31,133 nucleotides of DNA from a virus. Shown in pieces: positions 2,474 to 25,015 of the stretch; position 1 is the stretch's first letter, and each line of letters begins with the position of its first letter. Below the pieces are notes generated by a model. The model saw only the letters and a program-made list of their open reading frames with translations. It was not told the origin of the DNA and searched no databases. The position numbers and the translations under genes were made by a program. The DNA is taken from IMG/VR virus record IMGVR_UViG_3300025012_000231, positions 1-31,133 of that record; one strand, 5' to 3'.

Positions 2474-3103
2474 ATGAAACATATAAAACTTTTTGAACAG
2501 TTTATATCTGAAGAAGACATACCTAAACTTAGTCGTAAAGATATATTTATACCTAGGAGGCTTAAAGAAAGATGGGATGACTTACTTATCCATTACCTTA
2601 ATAAAGGGTATACCAAAGAACAAATATTCGTTGCTAAACCTTTTAATGAACTTATTTTTATAACTAAAAATAATATAGAAGATTTTAAGAATATTAAAGT
2701 TATAATTGGTAATGTTAGAATAAGCGAAATACATGATTTAAGAGAGCTAAGTATAGAAGAAGTAAATGGATATTTTAGTTGCTCTTATAATAACTTAACT
2801 AGTCTAGATGGCGTCCCTAAAAAAGTTGACGAATTTTATTGTTCTAATAATAAACTAACTAATCTCAAAGGATCTCCTAGTATAGTTAACGGTGGTTTTT
2901 ATTGTTCTAATAATAAACTAACTAGTTTAGAGGGAGCTCCTAATAATGTTAATGAATTTGATTGTTCTTATAATTATTTAACTAGTCTAGAAGATGCTCC
3001 TAAAATAGTTAATGGAAATTTTTTTATTACTTATAATTATAAAGATTTTACAGAAAAAGAAGTAAGAGAAGTAATCGATGTTAAAGGAATAGCTTATGTT
3101 TAA
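2474..3103 (+). CDS. LRR family paralog 1, CTS-like N-terminus
   Basis: First of seven paralogs. I chose the ATG at 2474 because it gives the shared N-terminus MKHIKLFEQFISEEDIPK; the frame also opens further upstream at 2417. The protein is 209 residues: a leader of about 14 residues with FISE (an I-x-E site), a conserved head with IPRRLKERWDDLL and YLNKGYTKEQIFVAKPF, four repeats of 21 residues (pattern FxCSxNxLTSLEGAP then xxVNG), and a cap beginning FTEKEVREVIDVKG. Such repeats form short solenoids used for protein binding. The leader suggests packaging in the phage head. The next gene, the terminase, is in the same frame, separated only by TAA and five codons. The target of the LRR is unknown. 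Confidence 0.85.
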   Translation: MKHIKLFEQFISEEDIPKLSRKDIFIPRRLKERWDDLLIHYLNKGYTKEQIFVAKPFNELIFITKNNIEDFKNIKVIIGNVRISEIHDLRELSIEEVNGYFSCSYNNLTSLDGVPKKVDEFYCSNNKLTNLKGSPSIVNGGFYCSNNKLTSLEGAPNNVNEFDCSYNYLTSLEDAPKIVNGNFFITYNYKDFTEKEVREVIDVKGIAYV

Positions 3104-3118
3104 AATAATTATTATTAT

Positions 3119-5080
3119 TTGCGTGATTTTTTAAAAGATGGAAATTTTACATCTATCAAGTTATCAGATAGTGAGAGTAAAATTAAAACTGATCCAAAAA
3201 CAGGAGAGGTTATATCTCAGTCTTCCTCTTTTATTTGGACATCTGATAAAATAAATGATATTCTTCAAAAATATAATGACGGTTTAGTTGAAATTAAAGG
3301 GATGTCAAATAGTCCTTTTTTTACTGGAGATATAGAATTGCGCCGAGGAAATATATTGTTTGAGTATACTCCATATGAATTAAATGAAATTAGAAAATGT
3401 AGAGAAGATATATTATATTTTGCAGATACATACTGTAAACTAATGACTGACAATGGGTATGAATTAATAAAAACTGCACCACATCAAAGAGAAGTATTAC
3501 TAAATTATGTAAATAATAAATTTACAATTAGTATGCAATCTAGACAATCATTTAAGTCTACTACTGCTAGTATATTTATAGCATGGGTTACATGTTTTTC
3601 TTATGATAAGAATGTATTAATGATTGCTGATGTTAGTGAAACCACTAAAGAAATAATAGATAAGTTCTGGAATATTTATCGTACTTTGCCATTTTTTATA
3701 AAACCTGGTGTAATAAATGATTCAGTTATGTCAAAGAAATTTGATAATTTATGTAGAATATTTGGCAGAAATACTAGTACTAAAAGTGCTATTGGAGTAA
3801 CTGCATCTATTGTTTATATTGATGAGTTTGCTCATATTGAGCCGTCGTTTATAGAAAAATTCTATAAATCTGTTTACCCAACTATTAGTTCTAAGCCTGA
3901 TGGAAAAGTTATAATAACATCTACTCCAAATGGTCCAAATAAATTTTATGAATTATACTTAGGAGCATTAGATAAACAAAATGAATATGTTCCAATTAGA
4001 GTAGACTGGTGGCAAATACCAGGAAGAGACGAAAAATGGAAAAATCAAGAAATTGCTAACTTAGGTAATATAGAGTCATTTAATCAAGAATATGGTTTAC
4101 AGTTTTTTTCGAGCGACTCATTATTATTAACTTCAGATAATATAAAGAAAATAAACAACTTAAAAACTTCATTTATACATAAATCAATATTTAATTTTGA
4201 AGATGAAGAGATAACATATACTGAATTAAAATGGCATCCTAATTTTAAATTAGATAATTTAAAAAATGATAAACATTGTTATGTATTTACTGTAGATACT
4301 GCTGACGGTATAGAAAACGATTATTCTGTTATTAATATATGGAAATTAACAACTATTCCTTTTAAATCATTATTTAAAAATAGAGATCTATTTAGAAATG
4401 AAATAGATTGCTTTGGATTAGTACAAGTTGGAGTATTTAGAAGTAATACAACTGATATTAATCAATTTAGCCGTATATTAGAAATATTATCATTTAAAGT
4501 ATTTAATACTGATCATGTAAGAATAATACTTGAAATGAATCATAAGGGTGACCTATTAGTTAATAAATTGGAAAATAATAATTCTTATTGGCCAGGATTA
4601 TTATTATACAGCAAGCACTCTAATGAATCTAAAATATTAAAACCTGGTATAAAAACTACATCATCTAATAAAGTCAGGTTTTGTGAAAGATTAAATTATT
4701 TTATAACGTTAGATAAAATAATGCCGACTGACTCTGAAACTATTAAAGAATTAAATGCATTTGGTAAAACTAAAAACGGGTCATATAGAGGACAAAATGG
4801 TCATGACGATTTAAGTATGAGCTGTGTATTTTTAAGTGCATTTTATGAAAGTTCATTATTTATAGAATTAGCAAGTGAAAGCTACGATTTAATACAAAAT
4901 GTTGAATATAAGAAAAAATTTGAAAATGAAATATTAAAATATAATACTGAACGCGAATATAGTACTAATTCTGTAAATTTCAATTCATTAAACCAAATAA
5001 ATAATCTTTTTAATAATGTTAATAATGGAAATTACTTACCACATTCATTGATAAATAGTGAAGACCCTTATAAAATTTAA
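3119..5080 (+). CDS. terL: Terminase large subunit (T4 gp17-like)
   Basis: This is the ATP-driven DNA packaging motor and headful nuclease. It is 653 residues against about 610 in T4 gp17. A degenerate Walker A is seen at residues 141-148 (SRQSFKST, where gp17 has SRQLGKT), Walker B with catalytic Glu at IVYIDEF (D235, E236), and the coupling motif STPNG at 268-272. The C-terminal RNase H-like nuclease shows the three metal ligands: D393 in TVDTADG, E472 in LEMNHKGD, and D563/D564 in NGHDDLS. The start is odd: no ATG is available until residue 62, so TTG at 3119 is the most likely start. The preceding LRR gene is in the same frame and its TAA is only 15 bases away. The tail fibre gene also seems to use TTG, so TTG starts are plausible in this phage. 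Confidence 0.93.
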   Translation: MRDFLKDGNFTSIKLSDSESKIKTDPKTGEVISQSSSFIWTSDKINDILQKYNDGLVEIKGMSNSPFFTGDIELRRGNILFEYTPYELNEIRKCREDILYFADTYCKLMTDNGYELIKTAPHQREVLLNYVNNKFTISMQSRQSFKSTTASIFIAWVTCFSYDKNVLMIADVSETTKEIIDKFWNIYRTLPFFIKPGVINDSVMSKKFDNLCRIFGRNTSTKSAIGVTASIVYIDEFAHIEPSFIEKFYKSVYPTISSKPDGKVIITSTPNGPNKFYELYLGALDKQNEYVPIRVDWWQIPGRDEKWKNQEIANLGNIESFNQEYGLQFFSSDSLLLTSDNIKKINNLKTSFIHKSIFNFEDEEITYTELKWHPNFKLDNLKNDKHCYVFTVDTADGIENDYSVINIWKLTTIPFKSLFKNRDLFRNEIDCFGLVQVGVFRSNTTDINQFSRILEILSFKVFNTDHVRIILEMNHKGDLLVNKLENNNSYWPGLLLYSKHSNESKILKPGIKTTSSNKVRFCERLNYFITLDKIMPTDSETIKELNAFGKTKNGSYRGQNGHDDLSMSCVFLSAFYESSLFIELASESYDLIQNVEYKKKFENEILKYNTEREYSTNSVNFNSLNQINNLFNNVNNGNYLPHSLINSEDPYKI

Positions 5081-5087
5081 TTTAAAT

Positions 5088-5723
5088 ATGAAACATATAA
5101 AACTATTTGAACAATTCATATCTGAAGAAGACACTCCTAAGCTTAGTGCTAAAGATATATTTATACCTAGAAGACTTAAAGAAAGATGGGATGACCTGTT
5201 ACTTCCTTACCTAAATAAAGGTTATACCAAAGAACAAATATTTGTAGCTAAACCCTTTGATGAACCTATTGTTATAACTAAAAATAATATAGGAGACTTT
5301 AAAAGTATTAAAGTTATAATTGGTAATGTTAGAATACGTGGAATAACTGATTTGAGGAAGTTAGGTATAGAGGAAGTAACTGGTTTTTTTGATTGTTCTA
5401 ATAATAGCTTAACTAGTCTAGAAGGAAGTCCTATTATAGTTGGAGGATTTTTCTATTGTTATAATAATAATTTAACTAGTCTTGAAGGAGCTCCTGCTAC
5501 ATTTAATGGATGGTTTAATTGTTCATTTAATAGCTTAACTAGTCTTGAAGGAGCTCCTGCTACATTTAATGGATGGTTTAATTGTTCATTTAATAGCTTA
5601 ACTAGTCTAGAAGGAGCTCCTAAAGTAGTTAATGGCAAATTTGCTATTAATGATAATATAAAGAACTTTACAGAAAAAGAAGTAAGAGAAGTAGTTGATG
5701 TAAAAGGAAAAGTTATTGTTTAA
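5088..5723 (+). CDS. LRR family paralog 2, with exact internal duplication
   Basis: The start at ATG 5088 gives MKHIKLFEQFISEEDTPK; an in-frame ATG at 5058 lies inside the terminase gene and is less likely. The protein is 211 residues: CTS-like leader, conserved head, four 21-residue repeats and the C-terminal cap (FTEKEVREVVDVKGK). Repeats 2 and 3 come from an exact 63-bp tandem duplication (5472-5534 and 5535-5597), so the copy number changed recently. It begins 7 bases after the terminase stop and ends 1 base before the ATG of the next gene, so translation is likely coupled. The role is unknown; protein binding by the LRR and head packaging by the leader are inferences. Confidence 0.85.
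   Translation: MKHIKLFEQFISEEDTPKLSAKDIFIPRRLKERWDDLLLPYLNKGYTKEQIFVAKPFDEPIVITKNNIGDFKSIKVIIGNVRIRGITDLRKLGIEEVTGFFDCSNNSLTSLEGSPIIVGGFFYCYNNNLTSLEGAPATFNGWFNCSFNSLTSLEGAPATFNGWFNCSFNSLTSLEGAPKVVNGKFAINDNIKNFTEKEVREVVDVKGKVIV
5472..5597 (+). repeat. Two identical 63-bp tandem units in LRR paralog 2
   Basis: Unit 5472-5534 is identical to 5535-5597, and a third, diverged unit begins at 5598. The period equals 21 codons, one LRR. Exact identity at synonymous sites shows recent duplication. Confidence 0.95.
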
Positions 5724-5724
5724 A

Positions 5725-6351
5725 ATGAAACATATTAAATTATTTGAAGAATATATTAATAGTATAGAACTAATTACTGAATTAGCGATTAGCCTTGAAA
5801 CACTACTTGATATTAATAATAAGTCTATTGCATTAGTTATGCAAGAACTTAAACATAAAAAGTATAAATACTCTATTTATGATTTTGAAAATTCTAAAGT
5901 TCTTGGATTTATGGAAATTGCTGAAGACGACGGCATAATGCAAGTATCTAAGGTTGCTTCTGAAAAAGGTTATGGCCCGCTATTATACGATATATCCATG
6001 ATGAATATTTATCCAAACGGACTTTCACCAGATAGAAGCTCAATAACTAGTGGAGCTCTAAATTTATGGAAATACTATTATGAAAATAGGCGAGATATTA
6101 TAAAAAAAGAAATTAAACCAGGAGATCCTGCCTATATGGAATCATATAAAATGGGAGAAGACCTTACTATACATACTAACCCTGAAATTTTAAAACTATT
6201 AAACACTATTTATTATTTAAAACCAACTACTACATATTATAAATATACATCATTAAGCAATCAAATAATTAATGATAAAAATGCTTCGCCTAACTATATT
6301 TTAAATAAAGGCCAAACTTACTTTTGGAAAAAATACCTTAATAAAGTATAA
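5725..6351 (+). CDS. GNAT-like protein with CTS-like N-terminus
   Basis: The ATG at 5725 is chosen because it gives MKHIKLFEEYINSIE, matching the leader of the LRR proteins; an upstream TTG at 5716 overlaps the previous gene. The 208-residue protein has FENSKVLGFMEIAEDDG followed by VASEKGYGPLLYDISM near residues 83-98. The GYGPLLYD segment resembles the acetyl-CoA pyrophosphate-binding motif A (Q/R-x-x-G-x-G/A) of GNAT acetyltransferases, and phage proteins of this look are sometimes annotated that way. A downstream segment (YPNGLSPDRSSITSGALNLW) is typical of the same group. If it is a packaged enzyme, it could modify a host protein on injection; that is speculation. The leader lacks the I-x-E at position 11-13 found in most of the others. 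Confidence 0.6.
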   Translation: MKHIKLFEEYINSIELITELAISLETLLDINNKSIALVMQELKHKKYKYSIYDFENSKVLGFMEIAEDDGIMQVSKVASEKGYGPLLYDISMMNIYPNGLSPDRSSITSGALNLWKYYYENRRDIIKKEIKPGDPAYMESYKMGEDLTIHTNPEILKLLNTIYYLKPTTTYYKYTSLSNQIINDKNASPNYILNKGQTYFWKKYLNKV

Positions 6352-6592: not shown

Positions 6593-6665
6593 TCCTCTGT
6601 AGCTCAGTTGGTAGAGCACATAACTGTTAATTATGTGGTCGGTGGATCATGCCCATCCAGAGGAG
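6593..6665 (+). tRNA. tRNA-Asn (anticodon GTT)
   Basis: A cloverleaf can be drawn by hand. The acceptor stem TCCTCTG/CAGAGGA is perfect (7 bp); the D arm is GCTC-AGTTGGTA-GAGC; the anticodon stem is CATAA/TTATG with loop CTGTTAA, giving GTT; the variable loop is TGGTC; the T stem is GGTGG/CCATC. The discriminator G fits Asn. CCA is not encoded. The T loop is ATCATGC instead of TTCRANY: the conserved T54-A58 pair is replaced by A54-T58, which is unusual. Anticodon GTT reads AAC and, by wobble, AAT, a very frequent codon in this genome. Confidence 0.85.
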
Positions 6666-6683
6666 CATAAAAACTTTTATTTT

Positions 6684-7113: not shown

Positions 7114-7120
7114 CATATAT

Positions 7121-8966: not shown

Positions 8967-10304
8967 ATGGAAAAAACTATAAAAGACTTTTTAAATGAAG
9001 AATATAAAGATTTCTCATTATATACAATAGAACAACGAGCTATTCCATCAGTAATAGATGGGTTTAAGCCAACTGCTCGTAAAATAGTTGCATGTAGTAT
9101 TTCAATATGGAAAAACGGAACTGAAAAACCTCTTAAAGTATTTCAATTAGTAGGACAAGTTGCAAGTACAATGCATTATCACCATGGTAACTCTAGTGCT
9201 GAATCTGCTGTTATTACACTAGCCCAAAAATTTAAAAATAATTTACCTCTACTAGATGAAGTTGGCCAATTTGGCTCAATAAGATCTCCTGACCCAGGCG
9301 CAGCTCGATATATTGGAACTAAACTTACTAAAGTATTCAATTTAATTTATAAAGATAATGACTTAGTATCATATAAATATGATGAAGGAGATAAAATAGA
9401 GCCTAATTACTATTTACCAATTATACCTATGGTTTTAATAAATGGCAGCTCTGGCATAGCAGTTGGATTTAGTAGTAATATCTTAAATAGAAATCCGTCT
9501 GACATTACTAACGCCTGTCTAAATATCCTAAATGATAAAAAATTTTATAAAATAAAACCATTTAATAACTATTTTTCTGGAGAATATAAAAATGACCCTG
9601 AAAATAATAAAAGATGGATTATTAGAGGTAAATATACTGTAGAAAATACATCAACTATTAAAATAGTAGAACTACCTCCTAGCATGACATATGAAAAATA
9701 TGAAAAAGTTTTAGATAAACTAGTTGAAAATAGACATATAGCGTCATATACAGATAATTGTAAAGATAATATCGACTACACTATTAAATTTAATAGAGAA
9801 AAATTAGCAAGTCTAACTGAAGACGAAATATTTAATTTATTAAAACTAGAAGAATCTGAAACTGAAATGTTTTCAACTTTAGACGAATATGGTAAACTTA
9901 AAATATTTGAAAGTGCAGAAGATATTATTTACTATTTTGTCAATTTCAGACTAAACTTTTATATAAAAAGAAAAAATAGTTTAATAGATAAATTAAATCA
10001 TGAACTAAAAATAATAGCAAATAAAGCTAAATTTATTAAAACTATTATTGATAATAAATTATCAATTAATAATCGTAAAAAAGACGATATATGCAATGAT
10101 ATAGAAAAACTTAGCCTGGATAAAATAGAAGGGTCCTGGGACTATCTTTTACGATTACCAATATATTCCCTTACTAAGGAGTTATATGATAAATTAAAGG
10201 ACGATTTTAAGTTTAAAATAGAAGAGTTGGATAAGCTTAAGAAGAAGGATCCAAAGTCTATGTATATAGAAGATTTAGAAGAACTAAAACGAAACTTAAG
10301 ATAA
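8967..10304 (+). CDS. DNA topoisomerase II medium subunit (T4 gp52-like, GyrA-type)
   Basis: This is the DNA cleavage and religation subunit of the type II topoisomerase, 445 residues, close to the length of T4 gp52. The winged-helix region has RAIPSVIDGFKPTARKI (residues 24-40), MHYHHGNSSAESAV (69-82) and GQFGSIRSPDPGAARYIGTK. The catalytic Tyr is Y115, in the position of the AAxRY motif of GyrA. The C-terminal beta-pinwheel of bacterial GyrA is absent, as in T4. The C-terminal third has charged helical segments like the coiled-coil arm. It forms an operon with the GyrB-type gene. Its last 9 bases overlap the end of the convergent tail fibre gene, with no clear terminator between the two. 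Confidence 0.95.
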   Translation: MEKTIKDFLNEEYKDFSLYTIEQRAIPSVIDGFKPTARKIVACSISIWKNGTEKPLKVFQLVGQVASTMHYHHGNSSAESAVITLAQKFKNNLPLLDEVGQFGSIRSPDPGAARYIGTKLTKVFNLIYKDNDLVSYKYDEGDKIEPNYYLPIIPMVLINGSSGIAVGFSSNILNRNPSDITNACLNILNDKKFYKIKPFNNYFSGEYKNDPENNKRWIIRGKYTVENTSTIKIVELPPSMTYEKYEKVLDKLVENRHIASYTDNCKDNIDYTIKFNREKLASLTEDEIFNLLKLEESETEMFSTLDEYGKLKIFESAEDIIYYFVNFRLNFYIKRKNSLIDKLNHELKIIANKAKFIKTIIDNKLSINNRKKDDICNDIEKLSLDKIEGSWDYLLRLPIYSLTKELYDKLKDDFKFKIEELDKLKKKDPKSMYIEDLEELKRNLR

Positions 10305-13994: not shown

Positions 13995-14888
13995 TTAACT
14001 ATAAACTTTTCCTTTTACATCAATTAATTCTCTTACTTCTTTTTGTGTAAATTTCTTTATATTATTATCAATCCAAACATTTCCTTTAACTATTTCAGGG
14101 GCTCCGTCAAGACTAGTTAGCATATTGTTATTACACATAAAACTTTCATTAATTATTCGTGGAGTTCCAATTAAATTAGTTAATATATTATAAGCACACT
14201 TAAAGTATCTACTGACTATATTAGGGCCGCCTTCAAGACTAGTTAAGTTATTATTAGAACAATCAAAATATCCATTAACTGCAGTAGGACATCCTTCTAG
14301 ACTAGTTAGTTTATTAGTATTACAATCAACATATCCATTAATCAATTTAGGCAAGTTGACTAGACTAGTTAAGTTATTATAAGAACAACTAAACGCACCA
14401 CTTACTGTTTTTGGACCTCCTTCAAGACTAGTTAAGTTATTATTAGAACAATCAAAATATCCATTAACTGTAACAGGAGCTCCTTCAAGACTAGTTAAAT
14501 TATTAGCATAACAATAAAAATTTCCATTCACTATAGTAGGAGATCCGTCTAAACTAGTTAAGGCATTATCAGAACAATCAAAAAAACCATCTATTTCATC
14601 TATACTTAATACTCTTAAATCATTTATACCTTTCACTCTAACATTACCTATTATTACTTTAATATTTTTAAAGTCTTCTATATTAGTATGCCCTATACTA
14701 ATAGCTTCATTAATAGGTTTCACTACAAATATTTGGTCTTTGGTATAACCTTTATTAAGGTAAGGAATAAGTAAGTCATCCCATCTTTCTTTTAGCCTTC
14801 TAGGTATAAATATATCTTTAGCGCTAAGCTTAGGAGTAGGGCTTTCTTCTTCAGATATAAATTGTTCAAATAGTTTTATATGTTTCAT
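13995..14888 (-). CDS. LRR family paralog 3, longest member (8 repeats)
   Basis: A 297-residue member of the family with leader MKHIKLFEQFISEEESPT, head containing IPRRLKERWDDLLIPYLNKG, eight 21-residue repeats and cap FTQKEVRELIDVKGK. It has twice as many repeats as most paralogs, so the solenoid would be longer. The head is slightly diverged (KDQIFVVKPINEAISIGHTN). Its ATG overlaps the stop of the upstream gene by one base (TAATG at 14886-14890), suggesting coupled translation, and its stop is 4 bases before the next gene. Repeats carry a Cys at the third position, giving a ladder of Cys along the solenoid. The target is unknown. Confidence 0.85.
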   Translation of the reverse strand: MKHIKLFEQFISEEESPTPKLSAKDIFIPRRLKERWDDLLIPYLNKGYTKDQIFVVKPINEAISIGHTNIEDFKNIKVIIGNVRVKGINDLRVLSIDEIDGFFDCSDNALTSLDGSPTIVNGNFYCYANNLTSLEGAPVTVNGYFDCSNNNLTSLEGGPKTVSGAFSCSYNNLTSLVNLPKLINGYVDCNTNKLTSLEGCPTAVNGYFDCSNNNLTSLEGGPNIVSRYFKCAYNILTNLIGTPRIINESFMCNNNMLTSLDGAPEIVKGNVWIDNNIKKFTQKEVRELIDVKGKVYS

Positions 14889-16171
14889 TATGCTCCAAAA
14901 CCTATAATATTAAGAAAATTATTTAAATCATGACTACTAAAAATATTATCTGCGGCGTCATACGCTTCTAATTTACCATTTGGAAAGCTAACTACTGCAA
15001 CTTTAAATAAATCTTCTATTTTTGAGGGTTTTAACTCTCTTTTTAGTTTTTCAACTCTATTAATAAACGATTTTTCAGTTTTTAGTTTTGATTTTATTAT
15101 ATTAGACCTAATATCTACATAATAAAATGTTACGTTATCACTATACTGATACTTTATCCAATGAGTATTAGTATTAGCCGTAGTACACCATTTTGTTCCT
15201 GCCCCGTATATACAAGACGCTTCATGAGTATGAGGCACTATAATAAACATATCAGAGTTATCTACAATAATGTCAGCTTGCTTTTTAATACCTCTTTCAA
15301 ATTCACTTTTTGTTTTTATTTTATTTAATTCTTCTACTAAATCATATAATTCTTTAAAAGTTTTAAAACGATTTATATCTTTTTTTTCTACTGGAACAAC
15401 TCTTTTATTTAAGAGAGCGTCATATTCTTCTATTTTATTTCTAATATCATTAATACCAATTCCTTCTAAATAAGATTTACCCATAAATGGTAAATACTTT
15501 TTAGTTTTACTAGGATCTATAGATACTAATTGATTAAAAATATCCTCAGGTATAAGATTAGTTTCTAAATATTTTTGTTTAGCTATTTTAACTGACTCGT
15601 CAGTTCTTTCTCCTTTACTTGCAGCAAACCATTTTGAACTAAAATACTCTAAATCTTTATAATCTAGCTTCTTGAGACTTTCTTTAACATTATCATCAAT
15701 ATATCCAAGTTCGTTTAACCTTGCATATAAGTCATTAAACAAATTTATGTTGCTGTGATAAAAGTCTGTATCTTCATGCATACTAATTAAAAAGTCTATC
15801 ATATCTTCTTTAGTTTTGAAGTATGTACTTTCTTTTACTGCAAATTTACCGTTATTCCAACTTTGCATTCCAGGCAATTTTCTTTTATCTTCTTCTGGTT
15901 TAAATGTACCTTCTACTTTAGAATCAAATTCAGTATACTTAGGAGTATCGGCCTTATGCCTTCCTTTAGAAGAACCAATTATAGATCTATATGTATAATC
16001 ATAATGAGGATGTTTAAAATTTTCGCCTCTATCTATCTCATGTTGATACCCTTTTAAAATTTTAGGGTAATCCTTAAATTCTATACGTTTAGACGCTCCG
16101 CCTTCTTTTACCCATTTAAGATAACCTTCATAATCTAAAAGATCTCTTCTTTTTACATTAAATGTATCCAT
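14888..16171 (-). CDS. Hypothetical phage protein with GTKWCTT motif
   Basis: This is a 427-residue protein. The N-terminal third is charged and helical (LKWVKEGGASKRIEF, GSSKGRHKADTPKY), and residues of about 315-350 contain PHTHEASCIYGAGTKWCTT followed by WIKYQYSDNVTFYYVD. The motif H-E-A-S-C-x-Y-G-x-x-T-K-W-C recurs, as far as I remember, in uncharacterised proteins of large phages, where a His/Cys/Trp-containing strand precedes a beta sheet. I cannot give a function. It is flanked by two LRR paralogs: its stop overlaps the start of LRR 3 and its start is 23 bases after the end of LRR 4. It lacks the CTS-like leader (it begins MDTFNVKRRDLLDYEGY). Confidence 0.6.
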   Translation of the reverse strand: MDTFNVKRRDLLDYEGYLKWVKEGGASKRIEFKDYPKILKGYQHEIDRGENFKHPHYDYTYRSIIGSSKGRHKADTPKYTEFDSKVEGTFKPEEDKRKLPGMQSWNNGKFAVKESTYFKTKEDMIDFLISMHEDTDFYHSNINLFNDLYARLNELGYIDDNVKESLKKLDYKDLEYFSSKWFAASKGERTDESVKIAKQKYLETNLIPEDIFNQLVSIDPSKTKKYLPFMGKSYLEGIGINDIRNKIEEYDALLNKRVVPVEKKDINRFKTFKELYDLVEELNKIKTKSEFERGIKKQADIIVDNSDMFIIVPHTHEASCIYGAGTKWCTTANTNTHWIKYQYSDNVTFYYVDIRSNIIKSKLKTEKSFINRVEKLKRELKPSKIEDLFKVAVVSFPNGKLEAYDAADNIFSSHDLNNFLNIIGFGA

Positions 16172-16194: not shown

Positions 16195-16770
16195 TTAAAC
16201 ATAAACTTTTCCTTTAACATCAACTACTCCTTTTACCTCTTCTTCGGTAAAGTTCTTTGTATTATCATTAATAGCAAAGTCGTCATTAACTACTTTAGGA
16301 GCTCCTTTAAGGTTAGTTAGTTTGTTATGACTGCAATAAAATCCAGCGTTAACTATAATAGGAGCTCCTTCTAGACTAGTTAACGTATTATTACTACAAA
16401 AATAATCTTTAGTTACTAATAATTTAGGTCCTCCTTTTAAGCTAGTTAATCTATTAAATGAACAATTGAAATCTCCAGACACTTCATCTAAATTTAATTC
16501 TTTTAAAATATCTCCATTTATTATAACATCACCTATTATTACTTTAATATCCTTAAATTCTTTTACATTATTTTTAGTTATCTCTAGCTCTTCATCAAGG
16601 GGTTTAGCAACGAATATTTGTTCTTTAGTATAACCTTTATTAAGGTAAGGAAGTACTAAGTCATCCCACCTTTCTTTTAGTCTCCTAGGTATAAAGATGT
16701 CTTTAGCACTAAGTTTAGGTTTCTTAGAGTCTTCAAGTATAAATTGTTCAAATAGTTTTATAGGTTTCAC
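16195..16770 (-). CDS. LRR family paralog 4, shortest member (3 repeats)
   Basis: A 191-residue member with leader MKPIKLFEQFILEDSKKP (I-L-E instead of I-S-E), conserved head IPRRLKERWDDLVLPYLNKG, three repeats and the cap FTEEEVKGVVDVKGK. The first repeat has a two-residue insertion (GGPKLLVTKD), so the phase of the solenoid differs there. It is the most diverged of the seven in the leader and in the EELEITKNNVKEF part of the head. It starts 6 bases after the upstream gene stops. The role is inferred from the family only: packaged, protein-binding LRR. Confidence 0.83.
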   Translation of the reverse strand: MKPIKLFEQFILEDSKKPKLSAKDIFIPRRLKERWDDLVLPYLNKGYTKEQIFVAKPLDEELEITKNNVKEFKDIKVIIGDVIINGDILKELNLDEVSGDFNCSFNRLTSLKGGPKLLVTKDYFCSNNTLTSLEGAPIIVNAGFYCSHNKLTNLKGAPKVVNDDFAINDNTKNFTEEEVKGVVDVKGKVYV

Positions 16771-18200: not shown

Positions 18201-18211
18201 TATTTATTCAA
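18201..18211 (-). promoter_or_regulatory. Candidate late promoter inside the end of the homing endonuclease gene
   Basis: On the minus strand TTGAATAAATA lies about 20 bases before the ATG at 18180 and overlaps the last codons and stop of the endonuclease gene at 18204. It would restore independent expression of the gene downstream of the inserted endonuclease. Confidence 0.45.
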
Positions 18212-20180
18212 TTTTTTTTAGATTATTCCATTCAAATTTATAATTCCCACAATCATACACTCTATAAATATTCCTACTTATCATTATATCATGTTCAGTC
18301 ATATTACTGTCATAACCCTCTGCTATCAATTTATCCTTTCTAAAATTAAACCTATGCCTCCTTACTCCATCTACTACATACCAATAATTAGGTCTGCTGG
18401 TACTCACATACTCAAATCCTAATTTAATATACAAGTTATTATCCTTGGCGTTTGTCCAACATCTATTAGCATAACTTATAATTTTAATAGGAGTATACTC
18501 TTCCACAAAATATTTAAATAGTTTAGACGCTGCACCTATTACACTAGTATTTAACTTATTACAAAACCTTAATAACTCATACTCTCCATTTTTAGATACT
18601 TGGCCTAAACTTTTTCTTTTATTACCAAATGTCATCAAACTAACTAACTCCTCTCCATAATACAAACCTATATTATATTTACTTACACACTTGCCCTGCA
18701 AATGATTATCTTCTAAAAACTGATTAGACTCTTTAAACGAGACTTCTTTAATTCTACACTTCCTAGAATATATTCTATTAAGAGTCTTATTTAAAAGGTT
18801 AAGTATACGTGATTTAATAATATCTTGCATATAAGTCCAGTCATCTTCCCATATATGAATTAAAGTTATATCATTTTTAATAGCAAGTTCAGTTTTTGTT
18901 AAATGATAGTTTTTATCTCTATATAATTCATTATGCCAATATACTCCATTAAATTCAAATGCTAATTTATAATCAGGTAAATATACGTCAAGTTCCTTTG
19001 GAGAAATAACACTTCTGTCATTAACTGTAATACTTATTAGAGTGTCTATTGATAAAATAAAATCATAAATACTTTTTTGAGAATCAGAGTAACTATATAC
19101 TGGATTACAATGAATACACGGAGTAACTTTATATCTTATTACTCTTAAATATAAAAAATTTAAAAGTATTGAGTACTCATTATTACATTTATCACATAAA
19201 ATTTTAATATTTCTATTTAAATCTATACTTAGAATATTTAAATTATCATATTTTTCTTTTATTCTAATGATAGATTTTTTTAAATTATTATCTTTTATTT
19301 TATCAGTAATATATTTAGATTTAGTTGGATTATCTACCCCATACTTTTCTATTAAAGACTTTTTTATTTTATCTTTAACTAAACCAAATTGAACATTATA
19401 GTCAACTTGGTATTTATCATTACATGTATTTTTTCTTTTAATATTTGAAGTTTGTATTTCTTCTTTATCTCTATTTAAATGAGAATTTTTAATTTTATTT
19501 CTTATTTTTTCTGATTGATTCGGATGGCTAACACCATACTTTTTAATAGAAGTATTTTTAATTTTATCTCTAATTTCTTTAGATTGAGAAATATATTCTA
19601 CTCCGCGTCTTTCTAAATTAGTTTTTTTAATTTTTTCTTTAACTTTTTCTAATTGAAAGACATTATCTATTCCATATTTTTGTTTTATTTTTAGTCTAAT
19701 TTCGTCTTTGCTCTTATTAAATGGATGGTCAGTTTTTGTTTTACCATTCTTATAAGCAACTTCCCATGGAGAGTTACCTCCATTTTTTTTCATAGTTTCT
19801 TTTTTAAGTAGAATCGTTTCTTCATTAATTACGCATTGTGAACAACAATACTTTCTATACCCAATTGAAATATTTCTATAATCAACAATATTATTACATT
19901 CTTTATTATTACATTTAATTATAGAAGTTATATCATTTATATAATGATATAATAATTGATTAAAATATTTATCATTTCTTAATAAACTTTCCAAACTATT
20001 TTTAATACTGTAATTTAAAACTTCTAAATATAAATTAAAATAATTTTTCTTTATATATTTTTCAGTACATCTGGACGCTGGCCTATCTAATATAAAATCT
20101 ATTATACCATTATACGAATCTTTAGGTTTTTCTGTAAAAACATTTTCTTCTAAAAGACTAATAACTTTATTTTTATCCAT
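18204..20180 (-). CDS. Free-standing homing endonuclease (EDxHD / Vsr-like nuclease fold)
   Basis: A 658-residue site-specific endonuclease of the family that includes phage Hef and I-Bth0305I-type enzymes. An N-terminal Cys cluster (C90, C95, C112, C113, C116) probably binds zinc. Residues of about 158-305 hold repeated basic units (for example KIKKTNLERRGVEYISQS and KIKNTSIKKYGVSHPNQS) that presumably read DNA. A second CxxC pair is at 329/332 and 355/358. The Vsr-like nuclease follows: KELDVYLPDYKLAFEFNGVY (396-414), then HLTKTELAIKNDITLIHIWE and DDW. The C-terminal region has SLMTFGNKR, ELLRFCNKLNTSVIGAASKL and ISYANRCWT, typical of this family. It is inserted between the tail tube gene and the 16777-18180 gene, after a terminator. 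It appears intact. Confidence 0.9.
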   Translation of the reverse strand: MDKNKVISLLEENVFTEKPKDSYNGIIDFILDRPASRCTEKYIKKNYFNLYLEVLNYSIKNSLESLLRNDKYFNQLLYHYINDITSIIKCNNKECNNIVDYRNISIGYRKYCCSQCVINEETILLKKETMKKNGGNSPWEVAYKNGKTKTDHPFNKSKDEIRLKIKQKYGIDNVFQLEKVKEKIKKTNLERRGVEYISQSKEIRDKIKNTSIKKYGVSHPNQSEKIRNKIKNSHLNRDKEEIQTSNIKRKNTCNDKYQVDYNVQFGLVKDKIKKSLIEKYGVDNPTKSKYITDKIKDNNLKKSIIRIKEKYDNLNILSIDLNRNIKILCDKCNNEYSILLNFLYLRVIRYKVTPCIHCNPVYSYSDSQKSIYDFILSIDTLISITVNDRSVISPKELDVYLPDYKLAFEFNGVYWHNELYRDKNYHLTKTELAIKNDITLIHIWEDDWTYMQDIIKSRILNLLNKTLNRIYSRKCRIKEVSFKESNQFLEDNHLQGKCVSKYNIGLYYGEELVSLMTFGNKRKSLGQVSKNGEYELLRFCNKLNTSVIGAASKLFKYFVEEYTPIKIISYANRCWTNAKDNNLYIKLGFEYVSTSRPNYWYVVDGVRRHRFNFRKDKLIAEGYDSNMTEHDIMISRNIYRVYDCGNYKFEWNNLKKIE

Positions 20181-20860: not shown

Positions 20861-20870
20861 AAAAAAACTT

Positions 20871-21506
20871 TTAAACATAAACGTCTTCTTTTACATCAAT
20901 TACTTCTATTACTTCTTTTTTTGTAAATTTCTTTGTATTATTAGAACAATCAAACCATCCATTAATTGTAGTAGGAGCTCCTTCAAGACTAGTTAAATAA
21001 TTATAAGAACAATCAAAACCTCCATTAACTGTAACAGGGGCTCCTTCAAGACTAGTTAACTTATTATTAGAACAATAAAAATATCCATTAACTGTAACAG
21101 GAGCTCCTTCAAGACTAGTTAACTTATTATAAAAACATGAAAAATATCCATTAACCGTCATAGGAGCTCCTTCTAGACTAGTTAAGTTAGTATTAGAACA
21201 ATCAAAATTTCCAACTACTTCTTCTATATTTAGCTCTCTTAAATCGTTTATTTCCTTTATTCTAACATTACTAATTATGACTTTAATATTCTTAAAGTCT
21301 TCTATATTATTTTTAGTTATAAGCATATCTTTATTAAAAGGTTTAGCAATAAATATTTGTTCTTTGGTATAGCCTTTATTTAGGTAAGGAAGTAACAGGT
21401 CATCCCAACGTTCTTTAAGTCTTCTAGGTATAAATATATCTTTAGCACTAAGTTTAGGAGTTTCTTCTTCAGATATAAATTGTTCAAACAGCTTTATATG
21501 TTTCAT
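20871..21506 (-). CDS. LRR family paralog 5
   Basis: A 211-residue member with leader MKHIKLFEQFISEEETPK, conserved head, four clean repeats plus a partial one, and cap FTKKEVIEVIDVKEDV. It starts 5 bases after the upstream membrane protein gene stops. Its 3' end shares 74 identical bases with LRR paralog 6 (20922-20995 equals 22744-22817), and both have the head variant AKPFNKDMLITKNN, so these two have exchanged sequence or arisen by recent duplication. The final cap residues (EDVYV) differ from the usual GKVYV. The function is inferred from the family. Confidence 0.85.
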   Translation of the reverse strand: MKHIKLFEQFISEEETPKLSAKDIFIPRRLKERWDDLLLPYLNKGYTKEQIFIAKPFNKDMLITKNNIEDFKNIKVIISNVRIKEINDLRELNIEEVVGNFDCSNTNLTSLEGAPMTVNGYFSCFYNKLTSLEGAPVTVNGYFYCSNNKLTSLEGAPVTVNGGFDCSYNYLTSLEGAPTTINGWFDCSNNTKKFTKKEVIEVIDVKEDVYV

Positions 21507-21511
21507 TATTT

Positions 21512-21838: not shown

Positions 21839-21845
21839 TTTTTAT

Positions 21846-22028: not shown

Positions 22029-22040
22029 ATTATTTAATTT

Positions 22041-22670
22041 TTATTTAGGAGGGGTAGTCGCTGCTTCTTTTTTTCTATCTATTACTCCATAAATTATTTT
22101 ACTTCCTTTTTTAAAGTCTTGAATACTCCTAAATCTAAAAAATGTGGATCCTTCTACTACTATTGCAGTATAAGAAATTTTTGAATTTCCTAATTCAGTT
22201 TTAGCTTTAGATATATTTTGTGGATTTATTAATTCAATTTGTAATTGATTTGTTGTATCATCTGCTTCATTTAATGGAAATGTAAAGTATATAATATACA
22301 CGTCACCAGATCTCCAATTATCAGAGTATAGTATGCCATCTAATTCGTCTTTATCAGAATCATCTAAGTTTCTCCATTTTTCTATTTTATAATTTCCTTT
22401 TTTAAATCCAATTGGTGAATCCCTTTCCATATTTCCAACTGAATATCCTTCGTCTTTTAAGTATTTTCTTGCATCATAAAATGCTTGAAAATCAGTTTCT
22501 CCTTTATCTACTTTTTCGGCTAATGCTACGTTTCTATTTTCGATTCCAAAATCATTTTTAATTAAATCAATATCAGATACTTTTTTATTAATGAAATCAT
22601 ATAAGGTTTCATTTTTAATACTTACTAAATTTTCTTGTATAAATTCTTCAAATAATTTTATAAATTTCAT
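22041..22670 (-). CDS. Hypothetical protein with CTS-like N-terminus
   Basis: The ATG at 22670 is chosen because it gives MKFIKLFEEFIQENLVS, the shared leader with an I-Q-E site. A longer start at 22700 would add a low-complexity (FKNKNKNKN) stretch encoded by a hexanucleotide run and overlap LRR paralog 6. The remaining 195 residues show NRNVALAEKVDKGETDF, YLKDEGYSVGNMERDSPIGF and a beta-rich part ending in STFFRFRSIQDF and IIYGVIDRKK. I do not recognise the fold. The leader groups it with the proposed head-packaged proteins, and the start lies about 20 bases after the end of LRR 6. Confidence 0.65.
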   Translation of the reverse strand: MKFIKLFEEFIQENLVSIKNETLYDFINKKVSDIDLIKNDFGIENRNVALAEKVDKGETDFQAFYDARKYLKDEGYSVGNMERDSPIGFKKGNYKIEKWRNLDDSDKDELDGILYSDNWRSGDVYIIYFTFPLNEADDTTNQLQIELINPQNISKAKTELGNSKISYTAIVVEGSTFFRFRSIQDFKKGSKIIYGVIDRKKEAATTPPK

Positions 22671-22692
22671 ATTTTTATTTTTATTTTTATTT

Positions 22693-23328
22693 TTAAACAT
22701 AAACCTTTCCTTTTACATCAATTACTTCTCTTACTTCTTTTTCTGTAAATTTCTTTGTATTATTAGAACAATCAAACCATCCATTAATTGTAGTAGGAGC
22801 TCCTTCAAGACTAGTTAGTTTATTCGTATTACAATCAAAATATCCATTAAATGTAGCAGGAGCTCCTTCAAGACTAGTTATATTATTAATAAAACAATAA
22901 TAACTTCCCTTAGCTATAGTAGGACCCCCTTCAAGACTATTTAACTTATTATTAGAACAATAAAAACCTCCATTAACTGTAGTAGGAGATCCTTCAAGAC
23001 TAGTTAAACTATTATTAGAACAATAAAAAAAACCAGTTACTTCGTCTATATCTAGCCCACTCAAATAAGTTATTTCATGTATTCTAACGTTACCTATTAT
23101 AACTTTAATATTCTTAAAGTCTTCTATATTATTTTTAGTTATAAGCATATCTTTATTAAAAGGTTTAGCGACAAATATTTGTTCTTTAGTATAACCTTTA
23201 TTTAGGTAAGGAAGTAACAGGTCATCCCAACGTTCTTTAAGTCTTCTAGGTATAAATATATCTTTAGCACTAAGTTTAGGAGTTTCTTCTTCAGATATAA
23301 ACTGCTCAAAAAGTTTTATATGTTTCAT
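22693..23328 (-). CDS. LRR family paralog 6
   Basis: A 211-residue member with leader MKHIKLFEQFISEEETPK, four repeats, a partial fifth and cap FTEKEVREVIDVKGK. Its ATG overlaps the stop of the upstream gene as ATGA (23325-23328), so the two genes are probably coupled in translation. The second and third repeats are the most diverged (NKLNSLEGGPTIAKGS, INNITSLEGAP). It is closely related to paralog 5 in the head and shares 74 identical bases with it near the 3' end. Its inferred role is the same as that of the other members. Confidence 0.85.
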   Translation of the reverse strand: MKHIKLFEQFISEEETPKLSAKDIFIPRRLKERWDDLLLPYLNKGYTKEQIFVAKPFNKDMLITKNNIEDFKNIKVIIGNVRIHEITYLSGLDIDEVTGFFYCSNNSLTSLEGSPTTVNGGFYCSNNKLNSLEGGPTIAKGSYYCFINNITSLEGAPATFNGYFDCNTNKLTSLEGAPTTINGWFDCSNNTKKFTEKEVREVIDVKGKVYV

Positions 23329-24020
23329 TTTAATTCGTCTTGATTTAAATCTAGTACTTTATTAAAATTGTCATTTGATATTAACACAACTTTCATAGGC
23401 TGGTTATTAGTATATTCTAAGTAATTTAATTTTGGGAATGCTATAAATTTAATATCATTATATTCAAACAAAAATGGGGATTCAATTTGTTCTTTAAATA
23501 TATCAGATCCTGATGGTAATGTAATACTAGTTTTTTTAGATTTTACCCCTATATTTTTAGCAAAAAACTCTACAATATTTTTATTTGAAGTTTCAGTAAA
23601 TATTAATAGACTATTAATATTCGTTTCTAAAGTTTTTAAAAGACTTGGGAATAATGTATTGTTTAAATAAGTAAAATATTGTTGTTCTTTAAGTATATTT
23701 TCAGCTTGCTTAATTGATTCATCATCTTTAGTGTCATTCGCAGGCTCAGCTTCATTAATGAATGATAAAAAATCTTTAGTATATTGTTCATCTATTTTAT
23801 AAGTAAACCAGTTTGATTTTTCATTTAATTTAATACCAAATAATGATTTATTATTATAATTTATAGTTGAAATATAAAATTTTTTATTATTTGTTAGTTC
23901 TATTAATCTTATAGATTCTTTATTATTTTCTTTTATTAAAGAAATATTTTTTATTCTATTAGGTAAAATATTATTAGAATATAAAAAATTAGAGATTATA
24001 GTATTTAATTGTCTTTCCAT
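23325..24020 (-). CDS. Hypothetical protein
   Basis: A 231-residue protein beginning MERQLNTIISNFLYSNNILP. It has alternating hydrophobic segments (SLLIFTETSNKNIVEFFAKN, IESPFLFEYNDIKFIAFPKL), a central acidic linker (FINEAEPANDTKDDES) and a C-terminus KVLDLNQDELK. No motif is recognised. The overall look is of a mixed alpha/beta domain with a flexible middle. It is tightly packed: its ATG directly follows the stop of the 24021-24320 gene, and its TGA overlaps the ATG of LRR 6. It lacks the CTS-like leader, although FINEAE inside the protein around residue 91 contains an I-N-E site. Confidence 0.6.
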   Translation of the reverse strand: MERQLNTIISNFLYSNNILPNRIKNISLIKENNKESIRLIELTNNKKFYISTINYNNKSLFGIKLNEKSNWFTYKIDEQYTKDFLSFINEAEPANDTKDDESIKQAENILKEQQYFTYLNNTLFPSLLKTLETNINSLLIFTETSNKNIVEFFAKNIGVKSKKTSITLPSGSDIFKEQIESPFLFEYNDIKFIAFPKLNYLEYTNNQPMKVVLISNDNFNKVLDLNQDELK

Positions 24021-24320
24021 TTAATTTAATTTATTTTGAATAAAATATGTTATTTTAATACTACCATCAGCTTGAGTATCTATATCAAATAATTCAGTAT
24101 CCCATAGATCTCCTAGGACATCATTCATTAGTTCTATGGTTAAAGTATCTTCTGGAATAACATTATACACATAATTTCCATCTGTAGTTACTCCATCATA
24201 TTCTATATCTCTAGCATGTTCTTTAAAGGTATTCCATAATATTTTTTTAATTTCATCTGGGTGATACTCTTCAAATTCATTAATAAATTCCTCAAATATT
24301 TTAATGTGTTTCATTTTCAT
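24021..24320 (-). CDS. Small protein with CTS-like N-terminus
   Basis: A 99-residue protein starting MKMKHIKIFEEFINEFEEYH. Either the first or third codon could start translation; the first forms an ATGA overlap with the stop of LRR paralog 7, favouring coupling. The leader matches the shared pattern, with I-N-E at residues 13-15. The rest (IKKILWNTFKEHARDIEY, VYNVIPEDTLTIELM, DIDTQADGSIKITYFI) looks like a compact alpha/beta domain and is unrelated to the LRR proteins. It ends exactly where the next ATG begins. It is a candidate packaged protein of unknown activity. Confidence 0.65.
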   Translation of the reverse strand: MKMKHIKIFEEFINEFEEYHPDEIKKILWNTFKEHARDIEYDGVTTDGNYVYNVIPEDTLTIELMNDVLGDLWDTELFDIDTQADGSIKITYFIQNKLN

Positions 24321-25015
24321 GTATAAACTCCACCTTTTACTTTAACAGCGTTTCTCACTTCTTTTTCTGTAAATACTTTACTATTATAAGTAATAGTAAA
24401 ATTTCCACCAACAATAGTAGGAGCTCCTTCTAGACTAATTAACATATTATCAGAACAATGAAAATTTCCAGTAACTGTAGTAGGAGCTCCTTCTAGACTA
24501 ATTAACATATTATCAGAACAATGAAAATTTTCATTAACTGTAGTAGGAGCTCCTTCTAGACTAGTTAATTTATTATTAAAACAATAAAAATCTCCATTAA
24601 CTATAATAGGGCTTCCTTCAAGACTAGTTAATTTATTATTAAAACAATAAAAATCTCCATTAACTATAATAGGGCTTCCTTCAAGACTAGTTAGCTTATT
24701 ATTAGAACAATTAAAATATCCAGTTACTTCTTCTATACCTAGTGCTCTCAGATCAGTTATTTCTTTTATTCTAACACCACCTATTATTACTTTAATATTT
24801 TTAAAGTCTTCTATATTATCTTTAGTTATAATAATAGGTTCATTAAATGGTTTAGCAACAAGTATTTGTTCTTTGGTATAACCTTTATTTAGGTAAGGAA
24901 TGAGCAAATCATCCCATCTTTCTTTAAGCCTCCTAGGTATAAATATATCTTTAGCGCTAGGCTTAGGAGTTTCTTCTTCAGATATGAATTGTTCAAAAAG
25001 TTTTATATATTTCAT
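24317..25015 (-). CDS. LRR family paralog 7 (5 repeats)
   Basis: A 232-residue member with leader MKYIKLFEQFISEEETPK, a head with IPRRLKERWDDLLIPYLNKG, five repeats and cap FTEKEVRNAVKVKGGVYT. Four consecutive 63-bp units occur as two pairs: 24561-24623 and 24624-24686 are identical, while 24435-24497 and 24498-24560 are nearly identical, so the repeats arose by two recent duplications. Both ends use ATGA overlaps with neighbours (25012-25015 and 24317-24320). Two repeats have LISL in place of LTSL. It is the clearest case of ongoing repeat expansion in the family. Confidence 0.85.
   Translation of the reverse strand: MKYIKLFEQFISEEETPKPSAKDIFIPRRLKERWDDLLIPYLNKGYTKEQILVAKPFNEPIIITKDNIEDFKNIKVIIGGVRIKEITDLRALGIEEVTGYFNCSNNKLTSLEGSPIIVNGDFYCFNNKLTSLEGSPIIVNGDFYCFNNKLTSLEGAPTTVNENFHCSDNMLISLEGAPTTVTGNFHCSDNMLISLEGAPTIVGGNFTITYNSKVFTEKEVRNAVKVKGGVYT
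24435..24686 (-). repeat. Four 63-bp tandem units in LRR paralog 7
   Basis: Units start at 24435, 24498, 24561 and 24624, exactly 63 bp apart. The last two are identical and the first two differ at only a few bases. Each encodes one 21-residue LRR. Confidence 0.93.

Follow-up and report, generated by a model that had tools for sequence, protein, structure and literature searches.

A conserved N-terminal leader on LRR paralogs and unrelated proteins of huge T4-like phages as a candidate capsid-targeting sequence

The DNA analyzed here (the window) is a virus fragment of 31 kb (31,133 nucleotides), contained in the 246,115-bp genome G001 (IMGVR_UViG_3300025030_000041), with 3,106 of 3,110 sampled 40-mers falling at a single offset. 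The window encodes seven LRR paralogs, all of which were found where a previous sequence-only reading had placed them (Table 1); six of them are 59–75% identical to the longest. The common leader, head region and C-terminal cap proposed for this set are seen in all seven sequences, with DIFIPRRLKERWDDL and YLNKGYTK.QI as the head residues in common. The same reading gave 3–8 repeats of 21 residues; their regularity held, while the figures shifted to a spacing of 20–21 residues and a count of 4–8 in the six paralogs covered by pattern-based counting (all but the one at 16195). The consensus of the leader is MKHIK-L-F-E-Q-F-I-S-E, with a core of aromatic-x-x-aromatic-aliphatic-x-Glu, present in every window paralog as F7-x-x-F10-I11-x-E13. 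The I-x-E noted earlier is indeed carried by all seven leaders, which end in F-I-x-E (FISE in six and FILE in one).

The LRR family of the parent genome comprises 18 members, i.e., 16 with leader and head, one with the leader and another head, and one with the head and no leader. I-x-E is contained in 15 of the 16 full leaders, the exception being FILK, and a variant at 95362 of G001 has Asp in place of the Glu. Repeat number varies between the expanded paralogs. The LRR genes run in the same direction as their neighbours and are surrounded by structural genes, both within the window and in the head region of G001; some are next to the genes for prohead protease and capsid. The mature LRR proteins have masses of 16–31 kDa, and the pI is below 7 in 12 of the 16 with leader and head (range 4.9–9.1). 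LRR proteins also occur in other phages, some without this leader, e.g., in Vibrio phage SRILMA; some of those in G007 likewise lack it.

Table 1. Window LRR paralogs and other window proteins with the leader or a leader-like N-terminus
Feature	Position	Strand	Length (aa)	Leader or N-terminus	Remarks
LRR paralog 1	2474..3103	+	209	MKHIKLFEQFISE	Conserved head, LRRs, cap
LRR paralog 2	5088..5723	+	211	MKHIKLFEQFISE	
LRR paralog 3	13995..14888	-	297		8 repeats; AlphaFold2 model made
LRR paralog 4	16195..16770	-	191	MKPIKLFEQFILE	GTG start
LRR paralog 5	20871..21506	-	211	MKHIKLFEQFISE	
LRR paralog 6	22693..23328	-	211	MKHIKLFEQFISE	
LRR paralog 7	24317..25015	-	232	MKYIKLFEQFISE	
Non-LRR protein	22041..22670	-	209	MKFIKLFEEFIQE	Same leader; length from inner ATG
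Non-LRR protein	24021..24320	-	99	MKHIKIFEEFINE	Same leader
Non-LRR protein	5725..6351	+	208	MKHIKLFEEYINS	Aromatic pair kept, I-x-E absent there
Non-LRR protein	26425..26706	-	93	MKIQSFKDYIVEQE	T4-type N-terminus, weaker form
Protein with weaker leader-like N-terminus	25481..26107	-		MNYIKKYSDWKSVNE	C-terminal DUF3175 match, E=1e-10

The Pfam LRR_4 match of an LRR protein reached 22.1 bits, below the cut-off of 27. PHROG 7816 and 21719, which are phage LRR proteins of unknown function, matched the LRR region with E-values of 2e-10 to 3e-4, the match beginning at residues 100–104, past leader and head, in the two window proteins scanned. The AlphaFold2 model of paralog 3 (mean pLDDT 87.9, pTM 0.80) has an ordered fold from about residue 35, with the LRR solenoid mostly above a pLDDT of 90, residues 1–34 below 50, and the leader ending at about residue 13. 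Human SDS22 was its best Foldseek match; the 50 listed PDB matches were mostly LRR proteins by title, and one of the 50 had an E-value below 0.001. Based on this model, the proteins are predicted to carry an LRR solenoid fold. The higher matches included the injected bacterial effectors IpaH, YopM and SspH1, which are alike in the LRR solenoid and are structural neighbours only, the matches being weak (E about 0.002–0.1, TM-score about 0.3–0.5). In contrast to these effectors, the phage proteins lack an enzyme domain and have a head-targeting-like leader, and both route and targets differ. Within the LRR strand, pN/pS was 1.75 at variable positions and 0.21 at core positions; the position groups were set after the variability was known, so that the value of 1.75 is partly built in, and the pooled counts ignore gene conversion and shared ancestry. 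Judged by these substitutions, the variable strand positions appear to change fast.

Values of dN/dS were 0.09 for the leader (over 16 paralogs), 0.095 for the first half of the head, 0.40 for the linker and 0.73 for the repeats. The leader codons are under strong purifying selection, and the conservation is at the protein and not at the DNA level; by eye, the 45 nt upstream of the paralogs hold no common sequence. A role of the leader as a DNA element or ribosome-binding feature was rejected, since the upstream regions are not alike and synonymous change is frequent inside the leader, and so was a role as an LRR N-cap, since the leader is present on non-LRR proteins and disordered in the AlphaFold2 model.

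Several window proteins outside the LRR family have the leader as well (Table 1). The one at 22041 had no PHROG match at 0.001 and a sub-threshold Pfam match only (AftA_C, E=0.055), and the one at 24021 had no Pfam match at 0.1 and no PHROG match at 0.001. In G001, 17 of the 287 non-LRR proteins have a T4-derived motif that begins at one of residues 1–20, where about 3 would be expected by chance; among 2,709 internal windows, the motif was found in 31 (p=8e-7). When homologs were merged, the counts were 16 of 286 against the same 31 of 2,709 (p=3e-6). A leader common to otherwise unlike proteins is as expected of a targeting signal. For annotation, we used 91 leader-bearing proteins, which are the 93 listed minus two LRR paralogs; the listing omits proteins shorter than 110 aa and two that cross locus borders. 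Pfam gave 49 families for this set, 17 of the 25 listed being matched by a single member, and PHROGs gave 41, while 20 leader-bearing proteins scanned singly yielded a Pfam match for six, five of them above the curated cut-off. Among the leader-bearing proteins elsewhere are an RNA ligase, a radical SAM, a PPK2 and a protein with a glutamyl/glutaminyl-tRNA-synthetase family domain. For some of the 91, such as a topoisomerase subunit (L146:5332), the motif match is certainly fortuitous, and the set is therefore no complete inventory. By the motif evidence, the tag appears to be present on many unrelated proteins of the G001 phage and of related huge phages.

T4-type leaders were enriched at the N-termini of non-homologous proteins in 6 of the 11 phage genomes examined. 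The number of families marked by a leader pattern was 16 in G001 and at most 63 in 400 kb of LR756502. A prediction fixed before the genomes were fetched held, with enrichment in LR756502 (26/578, p=7e-8) and none in Lak-A1 (4/407, p=0.43). In G001, 21 of the 31 proteins that have the pattern show [ILVMF]xE directly behind the aromatic pair, a high share; the segment is less common in LR756500 (10/21), LR756501 (15/42), LR756502 (11/70), G006 (6/51) and G007 (2/41). Many leaders without it at that place have, by eye, an inner I-F-E or L-F-E. The T4-type motif was not seen in PAU and PTm1, PAU having a leader of its own. In the T4 proteome, the motif was found in 5 of 254 proteins (p=0.12, not significant), including ipII and ipIII and missing ipI. 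T4 gp61.1 begins with MKTFKEFIKED. A second N-terminal pattern, found in the huge phages without a preset motif, matched 7 of the 254 T4 proteins, ipI, ipII and ipIII among them (hypergeometric p=1.3e-5), these matches using the initiator Met as the first letter of the pattern. The second pattern was also weakly enriched in Lak-A1 (p=0.018), a genome without the scaffold repeat described below.

The prohead protease gene, which the sequence-only reading had proposed to look for in the rest of the genome, is present in G001 as a Peptidase_S77/head-maturation-protease protein (PF03420, 37.8 bits, cut-off 27; phrog_207, E=2e-33). A search of the window itself returned none, because the window is only a 31-kb fragment. 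This gp21-family protease is fused to a scaffold-like tail and adjoins the major capsid gene and LRR paralogs; when viral contigs were searched with the full protease-scaffold, matches were found in G001 and G002 only. The scaffold is built of 14-residue repeats that resemble the leader core, in runs of 11–13 (looser in one genome) and with exact 14-residue spacing in the runs of four genomes. When internal copies of the core were counted with a relaxed pattern, the scaffold came top of the proteome in all five enriched genomes in which it was seen, LR756500 by the relaxed count alone (4; strict count 2, with 3 in another protein). Across all ten genomes, the T4-type leader and the scaffold repeat are present together or missing together, as had been predicted beforehand for two of them; the five genomes without scaffold repeats do not have this type of leader. 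The G001 scaffold contains 23 [ILV]-x-E, compared with 10.3 in shuffles, and eight [ILV]AE, compared with 0.48 (none of 2,000 shuffles reached eight), which are candidate cleavage sites. By eye, [ILM]-x-E also precedes the mature domain in the capsid proteins of G001 and seven others aligned with it.

In T4, proteins fused to a capsid-targeting sequence (CTS) enter heads. The T4 leader given in the sequence-only reading, MKTYQEFIAE, is correct, ipII and ipIII having MKTYQEFIAEA, and its alignment of FI-x-E with T4 FIAE proved sound, since this register meets the IPIII residues that passages of PMC9026906 map for targeting (4 and 7) and for processing (8 and 10). The likeness to IPI, IPII and IPIII covers a short N-terminal leader with aromatic-x-x-aromatic-aliphatic-x-Glu (ipII and ipIII; the aromatic pair in ipI), its presence on otherwise unrelated proteins, and genes for a gp21-family protease and a scaffold-like protein in the same genome. 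Unlike T4, the G001 leader has three extra residues ahead of the core, and the cargo is an LRR family of 18 copies, mostly not basic, whereas T4 IPII (pI 9.6) and IPIII (9.7) are basic and IPI has a pI of 7.9 (first ten residues removed). Furthermore, G001 has its protease and scaffold joined in a single protein with leader-like repeats of 14 residues, of which T4 gp21 and gp22 have zero copies. Ejection proteins of the phiKZ/SPN3US type are head-packaged and lose their propeptides to the prohead protease, as described in parts of PMC10052503 and PMC5694885; the SPN3US propeptides given there have mostly 111–254 residues (two have 20 and 24), in contrast to about 13 for the leader here, and a long propeptide of the phiKZ type (>100 residues) is absent from the LRR proteins. 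A literature search for virion proteomics, covering the phages compared here as well as PAU-like and Bacteroidetes jumbo phages, found none; in passages of the MA9V-1 paper (PMC10537231), "proteomic" refers to a tree, and an SDS-PAGE is shown. LRR and internal-protein terms were absent from the portions covered of a huge-phage overview (PMC7162821) and a jumbo-phage overview (PMC7824862), and capsid-targeting terms from those of the latter.

We consider it likely that the LRR set, seven proteins in the window and 18 in G001, consists of head-packaged, most likely ejected, target-binding proteins, and the sequence gives good support to packaging. The leader might instead target the prohead while the LRR proteins serve as structural core or head filler, not ejected or without a role in the host cell. 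This would accord with the one core motif common to leader and scaffold repeat, with the co-directional position of the LRR genes among structural genes, and with the link of IPIII to head assembly in passages of PMC9026906. We regard it as unlikely, however, since fast strand change and the multiplication of paralogs that differ in repeat number better fit the binding of variable targets, and the leader is also found on the RNA ligase, radical SAM, PPK2 and tRNA-synthetase family proteins. It is quite unlikely that the shared element is a protease recognition site alone, with targeting by another element, for example the conserved head: the Glu motifs are dense in the G001 scaffold and precede the mature domains of the capsid proteins, yet the aromatic pair is kept even where no I-x-E follows (leaders of G006, G007 and LR756502), and headless proteins carry leaders too.

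The leader is short, aromatic and possibly amphipathic, which would also suit an N-terminal element with a non-head job (membrane anchoring, localisation, translation or stability), as would the weak enrichment of the second pattern in Lak-A1. Such a job appears very unlikely, given that the pattern learnt from huge phages picks all three T4 internal proteins among its seven matches, that the T4-type leader follows the scaffold repeat in every one of the ten genomes, and that the upstream DNA is unconserved. That the seven genes arose by ordinary dispersed duplication, with conservation of an N-terminal LRR cap and no targeting signal, is scarcely credible: leaderless LRR proteins do exist in Vibrio phage SRILMA and G007, but this explanation is contradicted by the leader on unrelated G001 proteins, several times above the chance expectation, and the predicted disorder of the leader and the variable linker before the fold speak against a plain N-terminal LRR cap.

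In the packaging and ejection reading, which we prefer, the leader would act as a CTS. Its core resembles one repeat of the protease-fused scaffold, and the leader is therefore likely to be taken into the scaffold core as an extra repeat. The gp21-type protease would cut after the Glu at the candidate sites and free the mature protein while dismantling the scaffold, and the mature proteins would remain with the DNA and be ejected together with it. As the structural model and the substitution patterns suggest, the conserved head and the LRR solenoid with its fast-changing strands may bind host proteins, the paralogs representing a set of variants that face variable targets. By analogy with T4 Ip1–3, anti-defence would be the likeliest use. 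To a broader reading we give an even chance, namely that the CTS is a detached copy of the scaffold repeat and a general shipping label of the huge T4-like phage group, loading tens of unrelated families per genome into the head, with the diversifying LRR sets as an injected binder repertoire against variable host defences.

To our knowledge, most genes of huge phages have no known function. Should the leader prove to be a shipping label, sequence alone would flag proteins that may accompany the DNA into the cell, ahead of phage gene expression, and the leader would name candidates for first-strike anti-defence functions. The likeness of leader and scaffold would account for the loading of unrelated proteins into a head by a short tag, and would allow the tag of a phage to be predicted from the scaffold. 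With the LRR set, phages would then have a counterpart to diversified binding repertoires.

All seven LRR paralogs that the sequence-only reading had proposed are present in the window, and all are built alike. A leader very similar to MKHIKLFEQFISE is joined by a short, variable linker to a conserved head (DIFIPRRLKERWDDL..PYLNKGYTKEQIF), and ~21-residue repeats with a shared C-terminal cap follow. The window, a 31,133-bp virus record, sits nearly unchanged (offset 127,505) in the related contig G001 (IMGVR_UViG_3300025030_000041; 246,115 bp). The LRR family numbers 18 there: 16 members have both leader and head, the one at 95362 combines the leader with another head, and the one at 168289 lacks the leader. 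The small contig G002, which is the same phage as G001 in their overlap, was left out of the enrichment counts. The window encodes a T4-like terminase, whose best matches among 40 listed records, with identities of 31-36%, were Sphingomonas phage PAU, uncultured 462-642-kb phages, Lak phages and Tenacibaculum phage PTm1.

Coordinates of the capsid gene and of individual observations in the window and the compared phages
Feature	Sequence	Position	Observation
Major capsid gene	G001	85449-87068	phrog_138, E=9e-34
Large homing/HNH endonuclease gene	window	18204-20180	phrog_3339, E=8.6e-132; structural genes on both sides; two genes neighbouring the G001 capsid gene resemble it by eye
tRNA-Asn(GTT) gene	window	6593-6666	overlaps start of ORF at 6633
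Protein with collagen-like stretch near start	window	10296-13118	weak tail-fiber PHROG matches in that part
Internal match to T4-derived motif	window	14888-16171	some distance inside the protein; probably chance
Tandem LRR genes without leader	G007	3423-6148	relatives elsewhere in the contig have the leader; some matches read across stops
Proteins with PAU leader, head region (L102)	JQ362498	e.g. 110719-113735	one annotated 'internal capsid protein', one 'scaffolding'
1,691-residue protein	LR756501	21458-26533	seven more leader-core copies (FV[KN]Y[IL].E), spaced 58-61 residues
Gene 61.1 (L222)	T4, NC_000866	18966-19130	annotated hypothetical; starts MKTFKEFIKED, fitting the capsid-targeting pattern
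LRR protein (L105)	Vibrio phage SRILMA	2968-3603	50% identity in repeats; starts MCTFEEWFGED, spacing as in T4 leader
Leader-bearing protein (L050)	G001	110689-111384	HEIGH motif, presumably zinc metalloprotease-like; no PHROG match at 0.05

The likeness of the leader to that of the T4 internal proteins, also put forward from sequence alone, held on inspection: F7-E-Q-F10-I11-S-E13 is spaced as in MKTYQEFIAEA, the N-terminus of T4 ipII and ipIII. According to PMC9026906, the first ten residues of IPIII are enough for packaging, with residues 4 and 7 acting in targeting and residues 8 and 10 in processing, and Asp at position 10 blocks processing while targeting is kept. The variant paralog at 95362 in G001 reads FVND, with Asp at the processing position. 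We regard the product of T4 gene 61.1 as a candidate for a further T4 internal protein, judging by its N-terminus.

Several observations mark the leader as a separable module. It also occurs on non-LRR proteins, both in the window and in G001, and in G007 LRR proteins sharing this head are found both with and without it. By our own counting over 16 LRR paralogs, dN/dS was 0.09 for the leader, 0.40 for the linker, 0.095 and 0.71 for the first and second halves of the head, 0.73 for the repeats, and 0.86 for the last repeat plus cap. The DNA upstream of these 16 paralogs revealed no common sequence. In an AlphaFold2 model, residues 1-34 are disordered (pLDDT <50), and the LRR solenoid is mostly above 90.

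To follow the leader across genomes, starts of the T4-derived motif [YFW]xx[FYWL][ILVMF]xE within the N-terminal 20 residues of non-LRR proteins were compared with those in internal 20-residue windows; the ORFs came from our simple ATG-to-stop calling, so that protein starts and counts are approximate. The motif was enriched at N-termini in G001 (17/287 vs 31/2,709, p=8e-7), G006 (13/339 vs 46/3,250, p=0.003), G007 (13/234 vs 21/2,010, p=2e-5), LR756500 (27/662 vs 52/5,266, p=4e-8; the LRR filter was a pattern, and a small number of LRR proteins from a different class stay in this set), LR756501 (first 400 kb of 735; 36/528 vs 54/4,692, p=5e-14) and LR756502 (first 400 kb of 642; 26/578 vs 52/4,761, p=7e-8). 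When homologous proteins were merged, all six remained significant, G006 barely (p=0.03). No enrichment was detected in G005 (3/220, p=0.17), T4 (5/254, p=0.12), PTm1 (4/297, p=0.30), PAU (0/288) or Lak-A1 (first 400 kb of 542, code 15; 4/407, p=0.43). In a search without a preset motif, [ILVM][KR]x[FYW]xx[FYW] was the top-ranking N-terminal pattern for G006, G007 and LR756501; it came second in LR756502, where 72 proteins from 63 non-homologous families carry it. This pattern was weakly enriched in Lak-A1 (8/407, p=0.018) and also in T4 (7/254, p=0.0005), where ipI, ipII and ipIII are three of the seven matching proteins (hypergeometric p=1.3e-5); the T4 scan can thus be taken as an unplanned control for the huge-phage pattern. 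The T4 matches use the initiator Met as first letter, a position excluded from the original search, and the common part is therefore K-x-aromatic-x-x-aromatic at the very start. PAU has a leader of its own, MKT[LI]xxL[YF]E, on at least 14 proteins, at least five of them within the head gene region.

The sequence-only reading had named the absence of a prohead protease as evidence against packaging. No protease is encoded in the 31-kb window on its own; in G001, the major capsid gene adjoins the gene for a protein of 681 residues that combines a gp21-type protease domain (phrog_207, E=2e-33; PF03420, 37.8 bits, cut-off 27) with a long scaffold-like tail, and the packaging reading is therefore not refuted on this ground. 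Further along on the same strand lie the LRR paralogs at 89200, 90366, 92501, 94707 and 95362.

The tail consists of 14-residue repeats, e.g. FSNYIAENLNKSIE in G001 and YSEYIAENLDDNIA in G006, whose pattern, aromatic-x-x-aromatic-aliphatic-Ala-Glu, is the core of the leader. Exact runs at 14-residue spacing, with Glu not required, comprise 11 repeats in G001, 12 in G006, 13 in LR756501 and 11 in LR756502, and in LR756500 the arrangement is looser, with 7 repeats at multiples of 14. When internal core copies with Glu were counted over whole proteomes with a relaxed pattern, the protease-scaffold ranked first in 5/5 genomes, as compared to the next protein: 8 vs 2 in G001 (304 proteins), 13 vs 2 in G006 (350), 4 vs 2 in LR756500 (666), 15 vs 7 in LR756501 (530) and 12 vs 2 in LR756502 (578). 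With the strict motif it was first in four, the LR756500 scaffold (2 copies) not being first. The protease/scaffold proteins of G005, PTm1, PAU, Lak-A1 and T4 have 0-1 copies. T4-type leader enrichment thus follows the repeat scaffold in all ten genomes whose scaffold was seen (5 vs 5, Fisher p=0.004, which overstates independence because the genomes are related); for two of the ten, the outcome was predicted in writing before their remaining sequences were seen. The G007 contig gave no protease match, and its scaffold is therefore outside this comparison.

Candidate cleavage sites are in excess in the scaffolds: [ILV]xE occurs 23 times in G001 (10.3 in shuffles), 26 in G006 (12.9) and 17 in G005 (8.5), and [ILV]AE 8 (0.48), 13 (0.83) and zero times, respectively. 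Eight aligned capsid proteins, that of G001 among them, each show by eye an [ILM]xE ahead of the mature domain and close to the position of the T4 site, which is no more than suggestive. In the leaders, the aromatic pair is often followed directly by [ILVMF]xE in G001 (21/31), LR756500 (10/21) and LR756501 (15/42); the rarity of this arrangement in LR756502 (11/70), G006 (6/51) and G007 (2/41) speaks against a simple cleavage picture. Many leaders of the latter three instead contain KxYKIFES or KLFENF, in which the inner I-F-E or L-F-E is a putative site.

The AlphaFold2 model matched, at weak scores, a wide range of LRR proteins, among them the binding domains of bacterial effectors that are injected. 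Among 62 repeats from 17 proteins (a set without the GTG-start paralog at 16195), the most variable positions include 1, 3, 6 and 8, where Tyr, Asp, Asn and Lys are frequent, and to a smaller extent 5; assuming the usual LRR layout, positions 1, 3 and 5 should point outward on the strand. Pooled pN/pS was 1.75 for positions 1, 3, 5, 6 and 8 (singly 2.0, 4.6, 3.0, 1.8 and 0.7), 0.21 for the core and 0.95 for the remaining group, a contrast that is a lead and not a test because the groups were set after the variability was seen.

Other leader-bearing proteins, with the residue at which the domain starts, include a radical SAM protein (22), a Glu/Gln-tRNA-synthetase family protein (27), a DUF2201 protein (29), a T4-type RNA ligase (78) and PPK2 (166). 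In LR756500 the leader also occurs on a different class of LRR proteins, and in L021 on one LRR protein with a different head; Pfam LRR_8 matched 3 of 91 leader-bearing proteins scanned, a set that includes chance motif matches.

Our literature search found no report of such leaders in huge phages, of LRR cargo or of the scaffold resemblance; novelty is not proven, as bioRxiv preprints and most subscription papers lay outside the search. The use of the leader to find ip genes of T-even phages is already published, as stated in PMC12373910, which also describes the leader as the sole common part of T4 Ip1, Ip2 and Ip3, each of which blocks different GmrSD restriction enzymes; IPIII minus its leader works in the cytoplasm, according to PMC9391042. 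By analogy, we infer that the LRR proteins would be packaged in the phage head, cut, and probably ejected towards host targets, and a growing LRR set under one leader would fit the logic of T4 Ip1-Ip3.
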